Part shown: piece by piece, positions 3,437-26,067 of the stretch | Layout of the letters: the number at the start of each line of letters is the position of its first letter | Position numbering within the stretch: position 1 is the stretch's first letter | Assembly (NCBI GenBank): GCA_016206825.1 | Contig: JACQQY010000003.1 | Span: forward strand, 1-35,551 | DNA length: 35,551 nt | Origin: Candidatus Omnitrophota bacterium | GTDB lineage: Bacteria > Omnitrophota > Gorgyraeia > 2-02-FULL-51-18 | Direction: 5' to 3' | Made by a program: the position numbers and the translations under genes | The notes under the pieces: generated by a model | The model's input: the letters and a program-made list of their open reading frames with translations, nothing else | Databases searched by the model: none | Told to the model about the DNA's origin: nothing

Positions 3437-3794
3437 GTTGCGCGTCGATAGAGTAAAAGAGATCCAAGAGAGGAGAGCTTTAAAACCTCCCCGTAAGAAG
3501 GTCCCGCCGAAACTGGCCGTGATCGATCAAAGCGGATGCACGGGGTGCGAGGCCTGCATCATTTTTTGTCCGGTCGACTGCATTGAGATTGTCCCGGGAG
3601 TAGAGCACGTTCAATTGCAACAGGTAGTCGAAGTGGATCTTGAGCGGTGTATTGGCTGTGCTCTTTGTGCGAAATACTGCCCGTGGGATACAATCGTGAT
3701 GCTTCCCCACCAGGAAGCGCTGAACCAATCGTCCAATCTCACCTTAAAAAGTGTCTGCGGGCAAAAGACGGTGGAGAATATTTCGTCCTCATAA
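3429..3794 (+). CDS. 2x[4Fe-4S] ferredoxin
   Basis: CTGCEACIIFCPVDC and CIGCALCAKYCPWD cluster motifs; start taken at ATG 3429 inside the longer ORF. Confidence 0.88.
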   Translation: MNELRVDRVKEIQERRALKPPRKKVPPKLAVIDQSGCTGCEACIIFCPVDCIEIVPGVEHVQLQQVVEVDLERCIGCALCAKYCPWDTIVMLPHQEALNQSSNLTLKSVCGQKTVENISSS

Positions 3795-4733
3795 GGAATG
3801 GCATCTTTCTTCTATAAAATCCGCCACTTTTGTTTCAAGGCAAACTCCATTGAGAGCATTGATTTCCGGTATGCCTGCCGGGCTCGTGACGTTGATCTCC
3901 GTTAGCGCTTTCCCAATGACGTCTAAGCCGACAAAAAAGAGGCCATGCCGCTCGAGTACGGGAGCCATTTCTCCCACTATTTTTTTATCCCAACCGTTTA
4001 CCTCGGCCCGATGCATGGTACCTCCGGCGCTCAAATTCGCCCGAAAATCCGTACGCGAGGGCTTGCGAATAAAAGCGCCTAGTATTTTTCCATCGAGGAC
4101 AAGCAGTCTTTTATCGCCGAAGCGTTCCGTCGGCAGAAACCGCTGAATGAGTACCTTGCGCTGGCCGCGTCTCGTCGCCATTTCTAAAAGAGAGGGGAGA
4201 TTCCTATCCGAAAAAGAGGTCACAAAGATTCCCGCGCCCCCTTTTTCATGCAGGGGTTTGACAACCGCTCTTTTATGCAAGGTCCTGATAAAGCGAACGG
4301 CCTCCGGTATGCGCTCCGTCACCAGGGTTTCCGGGATATGTTTCGAGAACGCAAGCGTAAAAAGTTTCTCATTGGCGAGAGCAATTCCGTCGGGATCGTT
4401 GACCATAAAAACCTTGTCCTTGATCAGTCTTAAAAGCTGCAGGGCATAGAGATAATCTTTGTTAAAAGGAGGCTCTTTGCGGATAAATACGCAGTGCATT
4501 TGGCTGAGATCCACAGGCTCCGGGGAAACCGGAGAGGGCAAAAACCCTTTTTTGACGTTCAAGCGCGGTTTTCGCAGGAAGGCATGGGGAGATCCTTTCG
4601 ACCACAAGAGCTCGGAATGCTGAAAGTAAGATACCTCATGGCCGCGCCTTTGAAGCTCATGCATGATCCAGAAAGAAGAGTCTTCGTCAGGCTTTACCTT
4701 CTCGGTTGGATAAAGCAAAAAGGCTATTTTCAT
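3789..4733 (-). CDS. gshB: Glutathione synthase-like ATP-grasp ligase
   Basis: MKIAFLLYPTEKVKPDEDSSFWIMHELQRRGHEV; KPLHEKGGAGIF; DKRLLVLDGKILGAFIRKP; GLDVIGKALTEINVTSPAGIPEIN; paired with gshA. Confidence 0.85.
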   Translation of the reverse strand: MKIAFLLYPTEKVKPDEDSSFWIMHELQRRGHEVSYFQHSELLWSKGSPHAFLRKPRLNVKKGFLPSPVSPEPVDLSQMHCVFIRKEPPFNKDYLYALQLLRLIKDKVFMVNDPDGIALANEKLFTLAFSKHIPETLVTERIPEAVRFIRTLHKRAVVKPLHEKGGAGIFVTSFSDRNLPSLLEMATRRGQRKVLIQRFLPTERFGDKRLLVLDGKILGAFIRKPSRTDFRANLSAGGTMHRAEVNGWDKKIVGEMAPVLERHGLFFVGLDVIGKALTEINVTSPAGIPEINALNGVCLETKVADFIEERCHSL

Positions 4734-4775: not shown

Positions 4776-4811
4776 CTGCGAAGCTGTGCCGTCAAGGACA
4801 CAGCGAAGCAG
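4776..4811 (+). repeat. Family B hairpin repeat, copy 1 (upstream of gshA)
   Basis: CTGCGAAGCTGTGCCGTCAAGGACACAGCGAAGCAG; arms CTGC-GAA-GCTGTG / CACAGC-GAA-GCAG. Confidence 0.9.
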
Positions 4812-4824
4812 AAGGAGTTTGCAA

Positions 4825-6183
4825 ATGCAGTACTCAATGAATGAACCCCCTTTATCTCTTGATCAGCTTGCCGGGTATTTTTTGGAAGGCTGTAAGAAAG
4901 AATCTGAGTTGAAGGTAGGGGTTGAATGGGAGAAGATAGGGGTCTACCGGGAAACGGGCAAGGCCGTTTCTTACTCGGGCCCATGCGGCGTGGAAAGCAT
5001 TTTTAAGGCGCTCATGGCTCGGTATGCCTGGGAACCCGTTTTTTCCGGTTCCCATGTCATCGCCCTGAGAAAAGGCGACTCCTCCATTACACTTGAGCCT
5101 GGGGGCCAAATTGAATTGAGCGGCCAAAAAGCGGCCTTCCTAAGCGAAAATGCCGTGGAGCTGGATCGTCACTTAGAGGAAGTCAGAGCCGTTTCCGGAC
5201 CGATGGGAATTGTTTGGCTGGGGCTTGGGGTTCAGCCGGTCAGTAAGACCGGGGAGATCGAATGGGTGCCAAAAGAGCGTTACCGCATCATGCGCGAGGC
5301 GTTGAAAAACAACGGCGCCCTTTCGCATGCGATGATGCAGGAAACCGCGGCCATTCAAATTTCTCTGGATTTTATGAATGAGGAGGACGCTGTCCGGAAG
5401 CTTAGACTCGCGATGGCGCTTTCTCCTTTCCTGTACGCCCTCTTTGCCAATTCGCCGGTTTCAGAAGGCAAACGAAACGGCTTTTATTCGCGCCGGTCCG
5501 CCATTTGGCTCGAAACGGCGCCTGAGCGGACCGGCATTATTCGAAAGGTGTTCGATGACGGTTTTACGATTCGGGACTATGTGGAATACGCGTTGGATGT
5601 GCCGCTTTTTTTTATCATTCGCAGGGGGAAATGGGTGCCTGTCGAAAATACGACGTTCCGTCAATTCTGGCGGAATGGACTCGACCACTATCAGGCCACT
5701 TTAGCCGATTGGCGGCTGCATTTAAGCACCCTCTTTACCGAGGCGCGTTTAAGGCAGTATCTGGAGATAAGAAGCGTGGATTGCCAAGGAAGAGATCTCG
5801 GTCTTTCCGCGCCTGCTTTCCTGAAGGGTTTGTTTTATGATAGGGACGCCCATCGATCTGCCTGGGAGCTGCTGGGCAATTTGCCCTGGGAGGAGAGGAT
5901 GCGATTAAGGCAGGAAGTTCCCGTGAAAGGACTGCATGCTTCTTTTAAAGGAGCTGCGTTGTGGGAGGTAAGCCAGAAACTGGTGGTGTTGGCGGAAGAA
6001 GGCTTGGCGAGATTGAGCGCCAAGCAGCTTGCCGCGAAAGATGAAATAAAATATCTAAATCCCCTGAAAGCCCTTCTCTTTGAAAAGCACAAAATGCCCG
6101 CCGAGCTTTTGTTGGAAGGCTTTGCGGACGATCTGCCGATGGAAGAAAAAGTACGTCATATTATCCAAAAGACTGCGTTATAA
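4825..6183 (+). CDS. gshA: Glutamate-cysteine ligase (plant-like/GCS2 type)
   Basis: VGVEWEKIGVYRETGKAVSYSGPCGVESIF, LEPGGQIELSG, RSVDCQ; AGGAG SD before ATG 4825. The ORF opens at 4786 inside a repeat but the real start is probably 4825. Confidence 0.85.
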   Translation: MQYSMNEPPLSLDQLAGYFLEGCKKESELKVGVEWEKIGVYRETGKAVSYSGPCGVESIFKALMARYAWEPVFSGSHVIALRKGDSSITLEPGGQIELSGQKAAFLSENAVELDRHLEEVRAVSGPMGIVWLGLGVQPVSKTGEIEWVPKERYRIMREALKNNGALSHAMMQETAAIQISLDFMNEEDAVRKLRLAMALSPFLYALFANSPVSEGKRNGFYSRRSAIWLETAPERTGIIRKVFDDGFTIRDYVEYALDVPLFFIIRRGKWVPVENTTFRQFWRNGLDHYQATLADWRLHLSTLFTEARLRQYLEIRSVDCQGRDLGLSAPAFLKGLFYDRDAHRSAWELLGNLPWEERMRLRQEVPVKGLHASFKGAALWEVSQKLVVLAEEGLARLSAKQLAAKDEIKYLNPLKALLFEKHKMPAELLLEGFADDLPMEEKVRHIIQKTAL

Positions 6184-6239
6184 TAAATTGTATAGGTGGT
6201 ATAGGTCTTATTAGGTCATATAATGGTCTTGAGGAGCAG

Positions 6240-7112
6240 TTGTCTAACTTGATGAGACACGGCGAAAAGGCGTTTTTAAAAATAGCGGCGGAAGCCGCTT
6301 TCTTGGCGGGGAAGCTCCTCCTGCGAAGATACGGCAAGCTCAAACAAAGCCAGATCCAGGTGAAATCACGGCATGATTTTGTGACGGAAGTTGACTGCGA
6401 ATCCCAGCGCCTCATCATCTCCACGATCCAAAAATATTTTCCGGATCATCATTTTTATGCGGAAGAAGGGGAGAAGGAGTCAATGCCGGACCATGGAGTC
6501 CTTTGGGTGATCGATCCTCTGGACGGCACGGCCAATTATATTCACCGCTTTCCGCTGTTTTCGATTTCGATCGGGGTGCTGGTGGATGGGAAACCCCGAA
6601 CGGGCGTGATTTATGACCCCGTTCATCGGGAAATGTTTACCGCGCAAAAGGGTAAAGGAGCCTTTTTGAATGGGAAGCGGATTTCCGTGGCGAAGACCAA
6701 AGCCCTCGAGGATGCCTTGATGGCCACGGGGATTCCCTTTAGAGCCCGCGACCGCTTTGAAGAGTACATGGCCTCGTTTCGCCGGATTTCTCTGGCAAGC
6801 GCAGGGATGAGAAGGGGAGGGTCTGCGGCATTGGATTTGGCCTACGTGGCTTGCGGACGGCTGGACGGGTTTTGGGAGCTGGATTTGGCCTTGTGGGATA
6901 TCGCCGCAGGAGCTTTGCTGATTGAGGAAGCCGGAGGGCGGGTAACGGACGTCTGGGGAGGAAAAGAACACTGGGTAAGGGGCGATATTTTGGCGGCCAA
7001 CTCTTTTGTCCATGAGGAGCTTTTGCGAATTACTTCAAAATGCCTGATCAAAAGAAAAGGTTGCTGCGAAGCTGTGCCGTCAAGGACACAGCGAAGCAGA
7101 AAGGGCGCTTAG
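6240..7112 (+). CDS. suhB: Inositol-1-monophosphatase family protein
   Basis: VTEVDCESQRLI, YAEEGEKES, WVIDPLDGTANYIHRFP, WDIAAGALLIEEAGGRVTD. TTG at 6240 or ATG at 6252. The C-terminal CEAVPSRTQRSRKGA is repeat-derived. Confidence 0.88.
   Translation: MSNLMRHGEKAFLKIAAEAAFLAGKLLLRRYGKLKQSQIQVKSRHDFVTEVDCESQRLIISTIQKYFPDHHFYAEEGEKESMPDHGVLWVIDPLDGTANYIHRFPLFSISIGVLVDGKPRTGVIYDPVHREMFTAQKGKGAFLNGKRISVAKTKALEDALMATGIPFRARDRFEEYMASFRRISLASAGMRRGGSAALDLAYVACGRLDGFWELDLALWDIAAGALLIEEAGGRVTDVWGGKEHWVRGDILAANSFVHEELLRITSKCLIKRKGCCEAVPSRTQRSRKGA
7064..7099 (+). repeat. Family B hairpin repeat, copy 2 (suhB 3' end / upstream of thioesterase)
   Basis: Identical 36 nt to copy 1. Confidence 0.9.
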
Positions 7113-7113
7113 G

Positions 7114-7518
7114 ATGACCTTACGGTTGGAAGATGACAAGATGTGTTACGTTTGCGGCTCTAAGAACGAGAAAGGGCTCCGGCTTTCTTTTGAACACTCC
7201 AAAGAAGGTCATTTGCGGACGACCGTTGTGTTTGATAAATCGCATCAGGGTTTTAAGGACATGGTGCATGGCGGCGTGGTGGCGATGGTTCTGGATGAAA
7301 TGATGGTGAATTTGGCATGGAAAGAGGGAATGCCGGCGGTAACCGCCGAGCTTAAGGTGCGTCTAAAGAAACCCATAAGAGTAGGGGAAAAAGTCTGTTT
7401 TGAAGGGACCATCGAAAAGAGGCTTCGTAAAATTGTTTATGCCTCTTCTACCGCCAAAAATCTCGACGGGGAGATTTTAGCTTCGGCCTGGGCTGCTTGT
7501 CTCTGTGTTGATAAATAA
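7114..7518 (+). CDS. Hotdog-fold (PaaI-type) thioesterase
   Basis: CYVCGSKNEKGLRLSFE, MVHGGVVAMVLDEMM, GEKVCFEGTIEKR. Confidence 0.8.
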   Translation: MTLRLEDDKMCYVCGSKNEKGLRLSFEHSKEGHLRTTVVFDKSHQGFKDMVHGGVVAMVLDEMMVNLAWKEGMPAVTAELKVRLKKPIRVGEKVCFEGTIEKRLRKIVYASSTAKNLDGEILASAWAACLCVDK

Positions 7519-7534
7519 AATAAAAGGAGCTGCT

Positions 7535-7714
7535 ATGCCTTATATCAGTCTTCGAGTGGCAGGGAAACTGACGCGCGAGCAAAAGGCTGCCATTGCCAAG
7601 GAGTTCTCGGACACCTTGGAACGGATCGCCAAAAAGCCAAAAGAGTCGACCTACCTTGTTTTTGACGAAGTGGAAAGGGAGAATTGGGCGAAAGGCGCCG
7701 AGCTCCTCGGCTAA
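7535..7714 (+). CDS. 4-oxalocrotonate tautomerase-like protein
   Basis: MPYISLRVAGKLTREQKAAIAKEFSDTLERIAKKPKESTYLVFDEVERENWAKG: N-terminal Pro after Met, about 60 aa; AAAGGAG SD. Confidence 0.78.
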   Translation: MPYISLRVAGKLTREQKAAIAKEFSDTLERIAKKPKESTYLVFDEVERENWAKGAELLG

Positions 7715-7754
7715 AACGAGACAAAGCGAGGTCGCTGCGAAGCAGAACGAGTTC

Positions 7755-7790
7755 CTGCAAAGCTGTGCCGTCAAGGACACAGCGAAGCAG
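7755..7790 (+). repeat. Family B hairpin repeat, copy 3 (upstream of ACT protein)
   Basis: One substitution relative to copy 1 (CTGCAAAGCTG...). Confidence 0.9.
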
Positions 7791-7806
7791 AAAGGAGGAT
7801 CCACCC

Positions 7807-8205
7807 ATGCCGATAGAAAAACAGTTATCCGTATTTATGGAGAATAAACCAGGGCGTTTATCCCGGATCTGCAACACGCTGGCCGAAGCTCGTGTCAATA
7901 TTCAGTCTTTATCCGTGCACGACACGGTCGATCATGCCATCGTCCGCATGGTGGTCGATAATCCTACGAAGGCCCTTGTGTTATTGGAAGAGGAAGGACT
8001 TTACATCGTCACGCAGGACGTGGTCGTCTTGGAAATAGAGAATAAACCCGGGATCATCGCCAGCATCGCCAATAAATTGTTCCGTGCCGACACCAATATC
8101 GAATACGCCTATTGCACCGCCACCAAGAACCAAGAAGTGGGCTGTCTTGTTTTAAAAACCAAAGATGCGGAGCAAACTCTTGAAATTCTGGAAGAAATGT
8201 CATAA
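7807..8205 (+). CDS. Tandem ACT domain amino-acid-binding protein
   Basis: LSVFMENKPGRLSRICNTLAEARVNIQSLSV and VLEIENKPGIIASIANKLFRADTNIEYAY; AAAGGAGG SD. Confidence 0.85.
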   Translation: MPIEKQLSVFMENKPGRLSRICNTLAEARVNIQSLSVHDTVDHAIVRMVVDNPTKALVLLEEEGLYIVTQDVVVLEIENKPGIIASIANKLFRADTNIEYAYCTATKNQEVGCLVLKTKDAEQTLEILEEMS

Positions 8206-8212
8206 AGGCCGA

Positions 8213-8929
8213 ATGCGGCCGCTTGTTTTATTTGTTTTTGTTTCTTTTATCGGCGCCGGACAAGCTCTTTCTCGTGGTGAGCCCTTCGACAAGCTCAGGG
8301 CAGGCCTTGTCGAACCATCTGCCGAGCGTCAGTCCGCTGTCGTGCGCGAAGTCTTAACCGGGGACAGCGTGCGGCTGGAAGGGGGGCAGGTTCTTCGCTA
8401 CATTGGGATACAATCTCCGCCTCTTCAAAGCGCCATTCCGCTCGTAAGGAAGTATGGAAACGATGCGCTTCAATTTAATGCCGATAAGGTTGCAGGCAAA
8501 AAGATCCGGATTGAATGGGGCCCGCAAATTCGCGGTGATCAAAGCGAGCTTCTAGGATACGTTTTCCTTGAAGAGGGTTCGACAAGGCCTGGTTTGGGCG
8601 GAACCTTTCTCAATCTGGAGATCTTAAAGGCCGGCCAAGGCAAACTCAAAATCCTGCCGCCCAATTTGAAATATCTTGCCGAATTTCGAAAAGCCGAACT
8701 GGATGCGAGAAGAAAAAAACTAGGACTTTGGAAGGAAGAACCTGAAAACCCTTACATTCGGCATGAATATATCGGGGAGAAAAACACGCGTATTTATTAT
8801 TTTCCTACTTGTTCGGAGCTTGAGAGAATCCCTCAGGCCCAGCTCGTGACCTTTCGGTCACGGGTCGAAGCAAAAGCCGCCGGCTACCGGCCTTGCCCAA
8901 CTTGCCGTGAGGAAGTATCTCCTTACTAA
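8213..8929 (+). CDS. Secreted SNase-like (thermonuclease family) protein with C-terminal Ada-like Cys motif
   Basis: Hydrophobic N-terminus; VVREVLTGDSVRLEGGQVLRYIGIQSP; KLGLWKEE; C-terminal FPTCSELERI...AGYRPCPTC. Contains two repeat-derived stretches. Confidence 0.72.
   Translation: MRPLVLFVFVSFIGAGQALSRGEPFDKLRAGLVEPSAERQSAVVREVLTGDSVRLEGGQVLRYIGIQSPPLQSAIPLVRKYGNDALQFNADKVAGKKIRIEWGPQIRGDQSELLGYVFLEEGSTRPGLGGTFLNLEILKAGQGKLKILPPNLKYLAEFRKAELDARRKKLGLWKEEPENPYIRHEYIGEKNTRIYYFPTCSELERIPQAQLVTFRSRVEAKAAGYRPCPTCREEVSPY
8271..8318 (-). repeat. Family A repeat, long (48 bp) form, in nuclease gene
   Basis: CTCGTGGTGAGCCCTTCGACAAGCTCAGGGCAGGCCTTGTCGAACCAT; internal perfect arms TTCGACAAG/CTTGTCGAA at 8285-8293/8306-8314. 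Confidence 0.9.
8576..8592 (+). repeat. Family A partial copy in nuclease gene
   Basis: GGTTCGACAAGGCCTGG is the reverse complement of the right side of the long form (CAGGCCTTGTCGAACC). Confidence 0.65.
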
Positions 8930-12674: not shown

Positions 12675-14747
12675 TTAACACGCCAGCATTTCTTTTAAGC
12701 ATCCCCACACCTCATCCACCGTGACGGCTTTTAAACATTCAAAATCGATGGGACAGCGATGGGCGAGGCAAACCTCGCATCCGACGTCTTTTTGAATGAC
12801 CCGATGCCCCTTCCCCAACGCTCTCCAGCGAACGGGACTAAGGCCCATTTTGTTCCTTCCGAAGATACAAAGAGTTTTCGTCCCGACCGCCGCCGCGATA
12901 TGGACAGGCCCTGAGTCATTGGATACGAGGCAATCGCATTTTTTCAAGAAAGCAGCCAATTCTCTTAAGCGGAGCCTGCCCGTCAAATCCAACAGTTTCT
13001 CCCCCATTTGCTCTTTTAAGAGTCGGCCCAGAGGTCTTTCTTCTTCCCCGCCGATAACCGTCAGAAGGCAGGGAAGCTCTCTTAGAATTTTTTCTCCGAG
13101 AAGAGCAAACTGTTCCTTTGGCCATCTTTTAGAGGGACAGCTTGCCCCTGGATGAAGCGCGACGATTTTCCCGCTGCAAGAAGGTCGGGCGCTTTGCAAA
13201 ATTTTTAAGATCAGCTTTTCTTCGTCGACATAAACAGGAAGATAAACCTCCTCGTGGTGAGCTTGCCGAACCACTTTCTCGGCCGTCGGTTCCATTCCGA
13301 ATGCCCGCGCCACATCTAAGGTATAATCCGATTCGTGCTTCTTTCCCTCACGCCGCGCGTCAGTGACCGCTTTTGTCAAGAGAAACCAAGGTCCTTTTCT
13401 GAATCCTATCCGATAAGGAATGCCCGCCAAAAAGGGAACCAGATAAGAACGATTGGAGGGATGAAGGATAAAAGCGATGTCAAAACGCCTTTTGGCGATT
13501 TCACGGATAAACCTCAAGTTGCCTAAAAGAAAACGATGCCGCCCGCCGTTTTCGTAAGAATAAGGAATCACCTCATCGATCGAGGGATGCCCTTCCAGCA
13601 CTGTTTGGGTCGAAGGCCTTGTCATCACGGAAATGTGCGCTCCGGGAAAGCGGTCTCTTATCGCTTGAATGGCCGGCAGTGAAAGCACCAAATCCCCTAT
13701 TCGATCCAAGCGAACCACAAGAATCTTCGGAGCTTTTCTCCGCCACTCGTCATTCAAAAGCCCAACGGCTTTCCGATAGACTGCCTCAACGCTCAGCTCT
13801 TTCAGGCACTCATGATGATACCGGCACTGAGCCCTCTCGCAGGGCGCGCAGAAGGGAGTTTGGTGAACGGCGGCGCTCCCTGAAAATCGAGGACCATACT
13901 TCTCGGGATCGGTGGGTCCGAAGATGGCAAGCGTGGGGGTCTTTAGGGCATCCGCGATATGCAGCGGGGCGCTGTCATTGGTGATGAGAAGACAAGCGCC
14001 TCGAAGAAGCTCCGTCAATTCTCGAAAAGAAGTGCCGCCGCACAGATCGCGTGCCGGGGCATTCATCAGCTCCGTTACGCGACGGGCGGTTGACGCATCA
14101 TCGGGATCACCGATTAAAACGATTTCGCACCCTTCTTGAAACACAAGCCGGTCCAAAAGCCTCGCAAAAGACTCCGCCGGCCACTTTTTGATGTCGCTCT
14201 TGGAACCCACAGCCGCCGCCACTCGTTTAGAGGGCTTGGTTGGATCGTTTTTTCCAAGCAATTCCTGAATTCTTCTCTGAGCCTCCACGCTCGTTCCAAA
14301 AAAGACGGATTCCCCGCAAAGTGGTTCGGCAAGCTCACCACGATGTGGGATTTCCACAAGGTTTCTTAAAGCAGAAAGATGCCGGAAGGCGCGGTGTTTC
14401 TCCCGGCGCAGAGGCCGAATATAAGAGTTTCGAAAACGAGCTCCTCCGAAGAGACCTATCCAAGAATGTCTCAAATCCACAATGAGGTCGTAACGTTCTC
14501 GGCGAAGCTGCCGGATAAAAGTCCATTTTTCGCTCCAAGACATCCGCCTGTTATAAGACCAAATTCTCCGGATGCGCCCATCTTTTTCAAAGACTTCGAC
14601 GGCCTTCTCTCCCATGACCGTATGGAGCTCCGCCTCCGGAAAGGCTTTCATCAATGCCTGAAAAACGGGAAGCGTCAGCACCACATCCCCCAAATTTGAC
14701 AGGGTGACGATTAAAATTTTACGAACGTCTACGGCGGAAATTCTCAC
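12675..14747 (-). CDS. Tandem GT9-GT9 (two heptosyltransferase domains in one polypeptide)
   Basis: Domain 1 KILIVTLSNLGDVVLTLPVFQAL...LITNDSAPLHIADALKTPTLAIFGPTDPEKYGP; domain 2 KILVVRLDRIGDLVLSLPAIQAI...LVSNDSGPVHIAAAVGTKTLCIFG. Confidence 0.88.
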   Translation of the reverse strand: MRISAVDVRKILIVTLSNLGDVVLTLPVFQALMKAFPEAELHTVMGEKAVEVFEKDGRIRRIWSYNRRMSWSEKWTFIRQLRRERYDLIVDLRHSWIGLFGGARFRNSYIRPLRREKHRAFRHLSALRNLVEIPHRGELAEPLCGESVFFGTSVEAQRRIQELLGKNDPTKPSKRVAAAVGSKSDIKKWPAESFARLLDRLVFQEGCEIVLIGDPDDASTARRVTELMNAPARDLCGGTSFRELTELLRGACLLITNDSAPLHIADALKTPTLAIFGPTDPEKYGPRFSGSAAVHQTPFCAPCERAQCRYHHECLKELSVEAVYRKAVGLLNDEWRRKAPKILVVRLDRIGDLVLSLPAIQAIRDRFPGAHISVMTRPSTQTVLEGHPSIDEVIPYSYENGGRHRFLLGNLRFIREIAKRRFDIAFILHPSNRSYLVPFLAGIPYRIGFRKGPWFLLTKAVTDARREGKKHESDYTLDVARAFGMEPTAEKVVRQAHHEEVYLPVYVDEEKLILKILQSARPSCSGKIVALHPGASCPSKRWPKEQFALLGEKILRELPCLLTVIGGEEERPLGRLLKEQMGEKLLDLTGRLRLRELAAFLKKCDCLVSNDSGPVHIAAAVGTKTLCIFGRNKMGLSPVRWRALGKGHRVIQKDVGCEVCLAHRCPIDFECLKAVTVDEVWGCLKEMLAC
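13251..13274 (-). repeat. Family A repeat in GT9-GT9 gene (domain 2)
   Basis: CTCGTGGTGAGCTTGCCGAACCAC; read as VVRQAHHE by the gene. Confidence 0.88.
14321..14344 (+). repeat. Family A repeat in GT9-GT9 gene (domain 1), opposite orientation
   Basis: GTGGTTCGGCAAGCTCACCACGAT; the first 23 nt are the exact reverse complement of 13252-13274; read as HRGELAEPL by the gene. Confidence 0.88.
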
Positions 14748-23826: not shown

Positions 23827-26067
23827 TTAACCCGCAGGAGGCGCCGTCTCCGCCGCCGGTAATTTCTGAGCAATGTAATTGCAATCCGGATAAGCCGTGC
23901 ACCCATAGAAGGGGCGCCTTCGCCCAAACCGCGCCCGCCGTTCCACTAATTTCCCTTTGCCGCACTGAGGGCAAACGATATCCGTTGAAATGGACTTGGC
24001 GTTCTTGCACTCCGGCCAGCCGGAACAGCTCATAAACCGGCCCCTCCGGCCCCATTTGATCACCATCGGCCGGCCGCACTTTTCACACACCTCATTCGTC
24101 GGTTCGTCTTTTTTCTTCACGACCTCCATCTTTGTTTTTGCGGCATCGAGCTCATGGCGGAAGACTTCATAGAAGTCTCTCACGGCTTTCACCCACTCCA
24201 TTTTTCCTTCTTCGATGCTGTCCAGCTCGCTTTCCATCCCGGCCGTGAAATGGAAATCCAAAATTTTGGAAAAATGCCGCACCAAAAGGTCCGTCACCAG
24301 CGTTCCCAATTCCGTCGGAGCGAGGCTTCCTCCTTCCCGGTGCACGTAGCTTCGGTCGATCAGCGTCCCCAGCGTCGGCGCATAAGTCGACGGGCGGCCG
24401 ATCCCATTCTCCTCCAACGCCTTTACTAAGGTCGCATCGGTGAATCGCGGCGGGGGCTTTGTAAAATGCTGATTCGCTTCCAGCTTCACCGCTTCCAAAA
24501 CCTCTCCGCATTCCAAAGGAGGCAGAGGGCGTTCCATTTCACCGGTTTTCCCGCGCACGAGCAGATACCCCGGAAACTCAAGGCGGCCGCCGGTTGATCG
24601 AAAGAGATGCTCGCCGGCGGCAATGTCGGCCGTCTCCTGGAGAACAACGGCGGGCATCATCTGGCTTGCCGTGAACTGCCGCCAAATGAGAGAATAAAGC
24701 TCGAACTGATCCTCGGTGAGATAAGGTTTTAAATCCTCCGGCCTTCTCTTGACGGACGTCGGCCGAATGGCTTCATGCGCTTCCTGCGCCCCCTTCTTCG
24801 CCTTGTACATGGGAGGCTTCTCCGGCAGGAAGCTTTTCCCGTATTCTTTTTGGATAAACTCCCGTACTTCGCGCAGGGCCTCTGCCGATACGCGAACCGA
24901 ATCCGTTCGCATGTAAGTGATAAGACCCGTCGTGCCCGCTTTGCCGACGGCGACTCCTTCGTATAAGGTTTGAGCGACTCTCATCGTTTTGGAGGCGGAA
25001 AACCGAAGCTCGTTGTAAGCCGATTGCTGGAGTTTGCTCGTGGTAAAAGGCGCCGAGGGATTTCGTTTCTTCTTCTGGGAGCGGACGTCCTTCACCACGA
25101 ACGGGTGCGGCTTTATTTTCTCCAATACCGCGTCGGCCGTTTGACGATCTTTGATTTCCGCTTTTGCCCCGCCGATTTTTTCAAGGGCGGCGGAAAAAAC
25201 AAGCGGCGGCTCATGGGGGGCTTCTTTTTTAAGTTCCGCGTCGATGCTCCAATATTCTTCCGGGGTAAATGAGCGGATCTGCCGCTCCCGCTCCACAATC
25301 ATTCGAAGCGCCACGGACTGCACGCGCCCTGCGGATAAACCCCGCCCCACCTTCTGCCACAACAGGGGACTCAGCGAATATCCCATGAGGCGGTCCAAAA
25401 TCCGCCGGGCCTGCTGGGCGCCGACGAGGTCCATGTTGATGTGACCCGGATGTTTGAAAGCGTGTTCGATGGCTTCTTTGGTGATTTCGTTAAAGACCAC
25501 CCGAAAAACCTTCTTGCCCTTCCCCAATGCATTTCTAAGATGCCAACTGATGGCCTCCCCTTCCCGATCCGGATCGCACGCCAAATAAATTTCTTTCTTG
25601 CCTTCCGCTTTTTTCTTAAGCTCCTTCAGCGTCCTTCTTTTGTCCTGAACCACGATGTATTGAGGTTCGAAGTTATGGTCGATGTCGATCCCCATTTTGC
25701 TTTTGGGCAAATCGATCACATGGCCCATGGAAGCGGCCACCTCAAAACCGGGCCCTAAGTACTGGTGGATCGTTTTGCACTTGGCTGGCGACTCCACCAC
25801 GACAAGGGCCTTCTTCTCCGAACCCCCGCCCACAAAATGAACGATTTCCACCTCATCCCCGCCCTTTAAACGCCGCCGTGAAAAATCCTTTTTTGGAATG
25901 ACGTCCAGATTCAATTCCACGGCCACTTTTTCCTTCGGAATGGAAAGGCGGCGGAGAAGCTCTTCGATGGTCAAGCCTTCGTCAAAACGCTTCTCTTCTC
26001 CGTTGACTTTAAGGACCATGAGTTCCGACACGTCTTCTCTCTTGTGGTGAGCCTGTCGAACCATCAT
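23827..26067 (-). CDS. topA: DNA topoisomerase I with N-terminal ThiS-like domain
   Basis: TopA: ALVVVESPAKCKTI, YLACDPDREGEAISWHL, TGLITYMRTDS, two C-terminal Zn-ribbons. ThiS-like: MVLKVNGEEKRFDEGLTIEELLRRLSIPKEKVAVELNLDVIPKKDFSRRRLKGGDEVEIVHFVGGG, encoded at about 26019-25822. Confidence 0.92.
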   Translation of the reverse strand: MMVRQAHHKREDVSELMVLKVNGEEKRFDEGLTIEELLRRLSIPKEKVAVELNLDVIPKKDFSRRRLKGGDEVEIVHFVGGGSEKKALVVVESPAKCKTIHQYLGPGFEVAASMGHVIDLPKSKMGIDIDHNFEPQYIVVQDKRRTLKELKKKAEGKKEIYLACDPDREGEAISWHLRNALGKGKKVFRVVFNEITKEAIEHAFKHPGHINMDLVGAQQARRILDRLMGYSLSPLLWQKVGRGLSAGRVQSVALRMIVERERQIRSFTPEEYWSIDAELKKEAPHEPPLVFSAALEKIGGAKAEIKDRQTADAVLEKIKPHPFVVKDVRSQKKKRNPSAPFTTSKLQQSAYNELRFSASKTMRVAQTLYEGVAVGKAGTTGLITYMRTDSVRVSAEALREVREFIQKEYGKSFLPEKPPMYKAKKGAQEAHEAIRPTSVKRRPEDLKPYLTEDQFELYSLIWRQFTASQMMPAVVLQETADIAAGEHLFRSTGGRLEFPGYLLVRGKTGEMERPLPPLECGEVLEAVKLEANQHFTKPPPRFTDATLVKALEENGIGRPSTYAPTLGTLIDRSYVHREGGSLAPTELGTLVTDLLVRHFSKILDFHFTAGMESELDSIEEGKMEWVKAVRDFYEVFRHELDAAKTKMEVVKKKDEPTNEVCEKCGRPMVIKWGRRGRFMSCSGWPECKNAKSISTDIVCPQCGKGKLVERRARFGRRRPFYGCTAYPDCNYIAQKLPAAETAPPAG
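26041..26064 (-). repeat. Family A repeat at topA start
   Basis: CTTGTGGTGAGCCTGTCGAACCAT; reverse strand ATGGTTCGACAGGCTCACCACAAG = MVRQAHHK. Confidence 0.9.

Follow-up and report, generated by a model that had tools for sequence, protein, structure and literature searches.

The three hairpins analysed here lie just before start codons in a stretch of DNA from a Candidatus Omnitrophota bacterium. With a probability of about 0.68, they are solo hairpins that belong, as non-autonomous members, to a family of mobile palindromes of the Omnitrophota, the likely autonomous form of which encodes a GIY-YIG nuclease. The stretch (called the window here) is 35,551 nt long and spans positions 1 to 35,551 of contig JACQQY010000003.1 (assembly GCA_016206825.1). 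Its relevant features are as follows (SD, Shine-Dalgarno sequence; IMPase, inositol monophosphatase).

4776–4811 (+): solo hairpin copy 1, exact, 5′ of gshA; left flank CAAGTTC
4812–4817 (+): SD-like AAGGAG, directly 3′ of copy 1
4825–6183 (+): gshA-like glutamate-cysteine ligase (GCS2, PF04107), downstream of copy 1
6252–7112 (+): IMPase family gene (PF00459), the ORF of which continues through copy 2
7064–7099 (+): solo hairpin copy 2, exact, between the IMPase and thioesterase genes
7100–7105 (+): SD-like AAAGGG, directly 3′ of copy 2
7114–7518 (+): 4HBT thioesterase (PF03061), downstream of copy 2
7535–7714 (+): tautomerase (PF01361), upstream of copy 3
7735–7747 (+): collapsed copy CTGCGAAGCAGAA, just 5′ of copy 3, matching the arm copy GCGAAGNAGAA that precedes hairpin 2 in the full units of relatives
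7755–7790 (+): solo hairpin copy 3, one mismatch, between the tautomerase and ACT genes
7791–7798 (+): SD AAAGGAGG, directly 3′ of copy 3
7807–8205 (+): ACT-domain-pair protein (PF19571), downstream of copy 3

The original observation of three copies of a 36-mer before start codons was confirmed. Two copies are exact and the third carries a single mismatch (CTGCAAAGC); no match is expected by chance, and a shuffled sequence gave none. The distance from the end of the stem to the ATG is 13, 14 and 16 nt in copies 1, 2 and 3, respectively, and this gap holds the SD or SD-like motif listed for each. The hairpin also folds as described, with CTGC/GCAG and GCTGTG../..CACAGC pairs surrounding a GAA/GAA internal loop, the left side of which is AAA in copy 3. 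The calculated folding energy is −19 kcal/mol (z of approximately −5). Copy 2 is read as protein as well and encodes most of the C-terminal tail of the IMPase ORF (GCCEAVPSRTQRSRKGA). The gshA gene, with copy 1 in its leader, is divergent from gshB (3789–4733, −) in this Omnitrophota genome. In the gene at 8165–8929 (+), a Staphylococcal-nuclease domain is fused with a zinc-binding domain of the Ada type. The window also contains another dispersed repeat family, of the GGTTCGACAAGCTCACCACGA type, at 1038–1071, 8276–8317, 13241–13277, 14318–14348 and 26041–26064.

The host genome is an Omnitrophota MAG of 1.29 Mb in 120 contigs, 84% complete, which was covered by pattern and model searches. The genome-wide search for the 36-mer yielded five near-identical copies at ≤3 mismatches. 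All are at gene–gene junctions, on the strand of the downstream gene (5/5). Outside the window, one copy is located at the ssb/rpsR junction just before the rpsR ATG, and another at the bioB/bioF junction, with the stop codon of bioB contained in the hairpin. The start-proximal placement had been described as invariable. This holds for the five near-identical copies, but not for the diverged copies of the same genome (C65, C77, C95 and C119), nor for most copies in relatives, which lie elsewhere, mainly at tRNA 3′ ends.

A covariance model built from the five copies found matches in 23 of 59 genomes, the window's own included. A broader model found them in 26 of the 59, with up to 42 copies per genome. 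The core of the family is an imperfect hairpin with an outer CTNC/GNAG stem, the GAA/GAA internal loop and a covarying apical stem; the full design reads TT-S-CTNCGAAGC, a variable apical stem and GCGAAGNAGAA, with the GAA/GAA loop inside. Covariation of the arms, which had been proposed as a check, was found. In the class-wide alignment, pairing was kept in 98% of cells, and 97 cells showed a double change compared to 24.7 in shuffles, although this alignment was fitted to the structure, which favours covariation. Within the window's own family, an alignment made without structure gave 26 double-change cells against 6.5; here the apical loop CCGTNAAGGA is nearly constant, and the stem below it covaries. 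When 84,980 species were scanned with a hairpin pattern, 100 stretches matched. They came almost all from Omnitrophota, with two from Elusimicrobia and one from Acidobacteriota. The Acidobacteriota match is a chance match inside a coding sequence and was discarded. One Elusimicrobia locus (L266) has the same hairpin together with a GIY-YIG gene of the subfamily discussed below, near tRNA-His. Horizontal transfer to this other phylum is likely. A phage, plasmid or virus origin was rejected, as phages, plasmids and IMG/VR gave no match.

Each window copy consists of one hairpin. In relatives, the copies are mostly inverted doublets, which carry the terminal inverted repeats TTCTNC...GNAGAA. We collected 84 non-redundant units at tRNA genes. 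Among the 60 of these with both hairpins, only two have a spacer outside the ranges of 6–47 nt and 269–368 nt. The long spacers are occupied by an ORF for an 80-aa GIY-YIG protein, so that the complete form, of approximately 0.4 kb, consists of the tRNA 3′ end, an inverted hairpin, the ORF, an arm copy and the second hairpin. The ORF-less unit of about 110 nt, made of two inverted hairpins with TTCT...AGAA ends, is a common intermediate. Because the flanking hairpins are inverted and not direct, integron attC-like cassettes, which the shape had suggested, were dropped. In one genome, units behind tRNA-Val, -Gly, -Ala and -Trp are 89–98% identical, whereas their flanks are only 41–68% identical. 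The units behind tRNA-Val and tRNA-Gly in G044 are 98% identical over approximately 114 nt with unrelated flanks, and their borders are exact (CCA|TTCTGC...GTAGAA|CA). The distal border of most tRNA units reads CA. In a few cases (L035/L282, L296, L302), the unit is followed by up to 16 nt that directly repeat the tRNA 3′ end. A direct target repeat of at least 7 nt is present in only 5 of 60 units, and a long target duplication was thus rejected as the general rule. Mobility, boundaries and site preference are all evident in these relatives. In the window, CTGCGAAGCAGAA at 7735–7747 is probably an arm remnant, since full units keep an arm copy in that place. Such a remnant fits the window copies as solo derivatives, either relics or moved in trans.

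The 80-aa protein belongs to one subfamily of GIY-YIG nucleases. PF01541 was detected in all seven ORF proteins tested, and Y5, Y17, R27, H31 and E63, which correspond to the conserved catalytic Y, Y, R, H and E, are invariant in A7. The predicted structure (pLDDT 90) matches HIGLE, UPF0213 and Slx1, which are the closest solved relatives by sequence and fold. Unlike the structure-selective nucleases Slx1 and HIGLE, the protein consists of the GIY-YIG domain only and is encoded inside a mobile unit. Using a protein-only search of 384 Omnitrophota genomes, we inspected 66 genes of this subfamily, with 30 other GIY-YIG genes as comparison. A CGAAGC hairpin lies within 130 nt of 41 of the 66 subfamily genes and of none of the 30 others; a few seeds of the search profile came from hairpin loci, and those few count on both sides. 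Similarly, a tRNA gene is found within 200 nt upstream on the same strand for 40/66 and 5/30, respectively. The remaining subfamily genes, approximately 25 of the 66, have no CGAAGC hairpin within 130 nt; several of them have hairpins of the same design with other outer arms, which sometimes pair with the tRNA CCA. The link is limited to this one subfamily; the 30 top-scoring GIY-YIG loci showed no hairpin. At the loci outside the linked subfamily (L047–L076), 13 of 30 genes lie within 500 nt of tRNA genes, again with no hairpin. The nuclease is associated with the hairpin units in relatives. We infer that it also mobilises them, and such a mobiliser may have served the window's genome. In the host genome (84% complete), no match to the subfamily was found. 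In G003, from the same family, one hairpin adjoins a tRNA, and there too the subfamily nuclease is missing; none is recorded for G002 and G009.

In bacteria, the enzymes usually held responsible for palindromic repeats are Y1 transposases (PMC3733652). The hairpins could be repeats of the REP/REPIN type that owe their movement to a Y1 tyrosine transposase (RAYT, TnpA_REP), with the GIY-YIG gene as a passenger or neighbour. They do look like REP/REPIN elements, with single hairpins and inverted doublets, imperfect stems and intergenic dispersal (PMC3116915, PMC3733652), and, as in REPtrons, a hairpin-flanked autonomous form stands beside many non-autonomous copies of a short imperfect palindrome. 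The inverted doublets of imperfect palindromes that served as a test for REP were found in relatives. Y1 genes are also available, in 48 of 59 relatives and once in the window's genome. However, none of 30 Y1 loci has a hairpin within approximately 1.5 kb, and no GTAG or CGTC tag stands beside the hairpin, the left flank being TT-S. The tight linkage is to the GIY-YIG subfamily instead, and the targets are tRNA 3′ ends and SDs. A Y1-driven origin is unlikely. The Omnitrophota family works like REP/REPIN or MITE systems but has neither the GTAG/CGTC tag nor the Y1 linkage by which such repeats are defined.

The site preference was derived from 167 hairpins. Their left flank is mostly TT-S before CTNC, and the right flank is AA followed by the target. 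In 42 of the 167, the AGAA edge meets a tRNA gene precisely at its antisense 3′ end, with an offset of 1–2 nt in 42/42. The models behind this set included flank columns, and the count was repeated on pattern matches without flank information, where 29 of 105 unique hairpins adjoin a tRNA 3′ end. Among the remainder of this flank-unbiased set, 12 of 76 lie directly before an SD and the ATG of an open frame, compared to 0.6% of intergenic positions (p=6.5e-14), and 7 of 120 model matches outside the window's genome precede an SD and start (p=1e-5); both p-values assume independent copies, an assumption that does not hold fully for related genomes. The SD bias is thus real and family-wide, but second to tRNA 3′ ends. 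Read outward, the two targets are alike, with TGGNGG at the tRNA end and AGGAGG at the SD. As judged from this resemblance, the use of SDs may derive from their likeness to antisense tRNA ends, which would explain why the window copies lie on the coding strand just before SDs. One family member (L044, G007:C32) lies between 16S rRNA, the 3′ end of which it directly follows, and tRNA-Ile.

The same locations could arise if the hairpins moved without any target preference and selection left them in tolerated slots. Compact genomes tolerate only short intergenic gaps, and the SDs do remain intact 3′ of the hairpin. Selection for tolerated slots, however, is difficult to reconcile with an edge that meets the tRNA 3′ end to the base, with the enrichment of SD sites over other intergenic positions or with a constant orientation. 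We regard this as improbable.

The junctions occupied in the host genome are empty in relatives. All 11 family relatives examined for rpsR lack such a hairpin in the leader, and all 10 examined for the ACT gene lack it at that junction, where the gap from tautomerase to ACT is a few to a few tens of nucleotides. Four relatives have no such hairpin at the IMPase/thioesterase junction. G003 has at this junction, the site of window copy 2, a different and independent mini-hairpin of the same design (TCCTCCTTCGCTGAAGCTTCGGAGGA; L376, G003:C36). This junction is possibly an insertion hot spot. Of two further relatives, G006 has a GGTTCGACAAGCTCACCACGA-like palindrome in the ssb/rpsR gap and G005 has one of the GAGCTTGTCGAAGG type, which suggests that this gap collects different palindromic repeats. 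Empty orthologous junctions mark the hairpin as an insertion and not as a conserved regulatory RNA; a conserved regulatory leader was rejected on these grounds. More generally, an origin as a cis-acting RNA hairpin that regulates how the downstream gene is translated, one of the original suggestions, could draw on the strict 13–16 nt spacing to the ATG, the shared strand and the stable covarying fold, but it is very improbable given these empty junctions, the unrelated downstream genes (gshA, thioesterase, ACT, rpsR, bioF), the location of most family members at tRNA 3′ ends or elsewhere rather than at SDs, the inconsistent SD pairing across copies and the lack of an Rfam match at the hairpins. 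A secondary effect of the hairpin on translation is conceivable. The other original suggestion, a mobile element targeting or selected at SDs, is supported by the empty sites, by the nearly identical units in unrelated flanks, by the SD enrichment, which extends to other genomes, and by the covarying arms; the SD is, however, the minor target and tRNA 3′ ends the main one.

Several known systems share parts of this architecture. CGTC palindromes and Rickettsia palindromic elements (RPE) are also small palindromes that can be read within proteins, as in the IMPase tail here. They differ in sequence, and the Omnitrophota family has no CGTC tag and has a candidate nuclease; no dedicated transposase is known for CGTC-tagged repeats (PMC3733652). 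Prokaryotic MITEs likewise have an internally deleted, ORF-less unit with inverted ends beside a full ORF-bearing unit. Unlike in MITEs, the ends here are hairpins and tRNAs are targeted, and no classical DDE or other parent transposase was found (Y1 and GIY-YIG were searched). The free-standing GIY-YIG homing endonucleases of the phage T4 SegB type are small genes associated with tRNA genes as well. Here, in contrast, the copies occur at many different tRNAs and are hairpin-bounded and chromosomal.

On the preferred reading of a mobile palindromic family, the AGAA edge of an inserting element would come to lie directly 5′ of a GG-rich motif. Antisense tRNA 3′ ends (T/C-GG-N-G) would be the main target, and the similar SD (A-GG-A-GG) the minor one. 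Slx1 cuts branched DNA. A structure-selective nuclease of the Slx1/HIGLE kind may recognise the extruded hairpin through its GAA/GAA loop and may cut the element, the target or both. Host repair would then copy the element into the cut.

Whether this amounts to a new class of minimal mobile element we consider an even bet. The class would comprise a 0.4-kb unit with an 80-aa Slx1-like GIY-YIG nuclease between inverted hairpins as its sole protein. Its insertion sites would be the 3′ ends of tRNA genes of nearly every isotype and, owing to their similar sequence, SDs. It would also give off solo hairpins and doublets without the ORF, and their spread through the genomes of Omnitrophota would reshape 5′ leaders and protein tails. 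In the open-access literature on GIY-YIG proteins with palindromes, REP, tRNA or mobile elements, we found no description of such a system in bacteria. With a stand-alone GIY-YIG nuclease tightly linked to the hairpin repeats and to tRNA 3′ ends, there is a testable candidate for a different mobilising enzyme. This link would also explain the pile-up of hairpins at ribosome-binding sites. Should the nuclease act in the proposed way, these units would rank with the smallest known autonomous mobile elements and would have a safe target built in.
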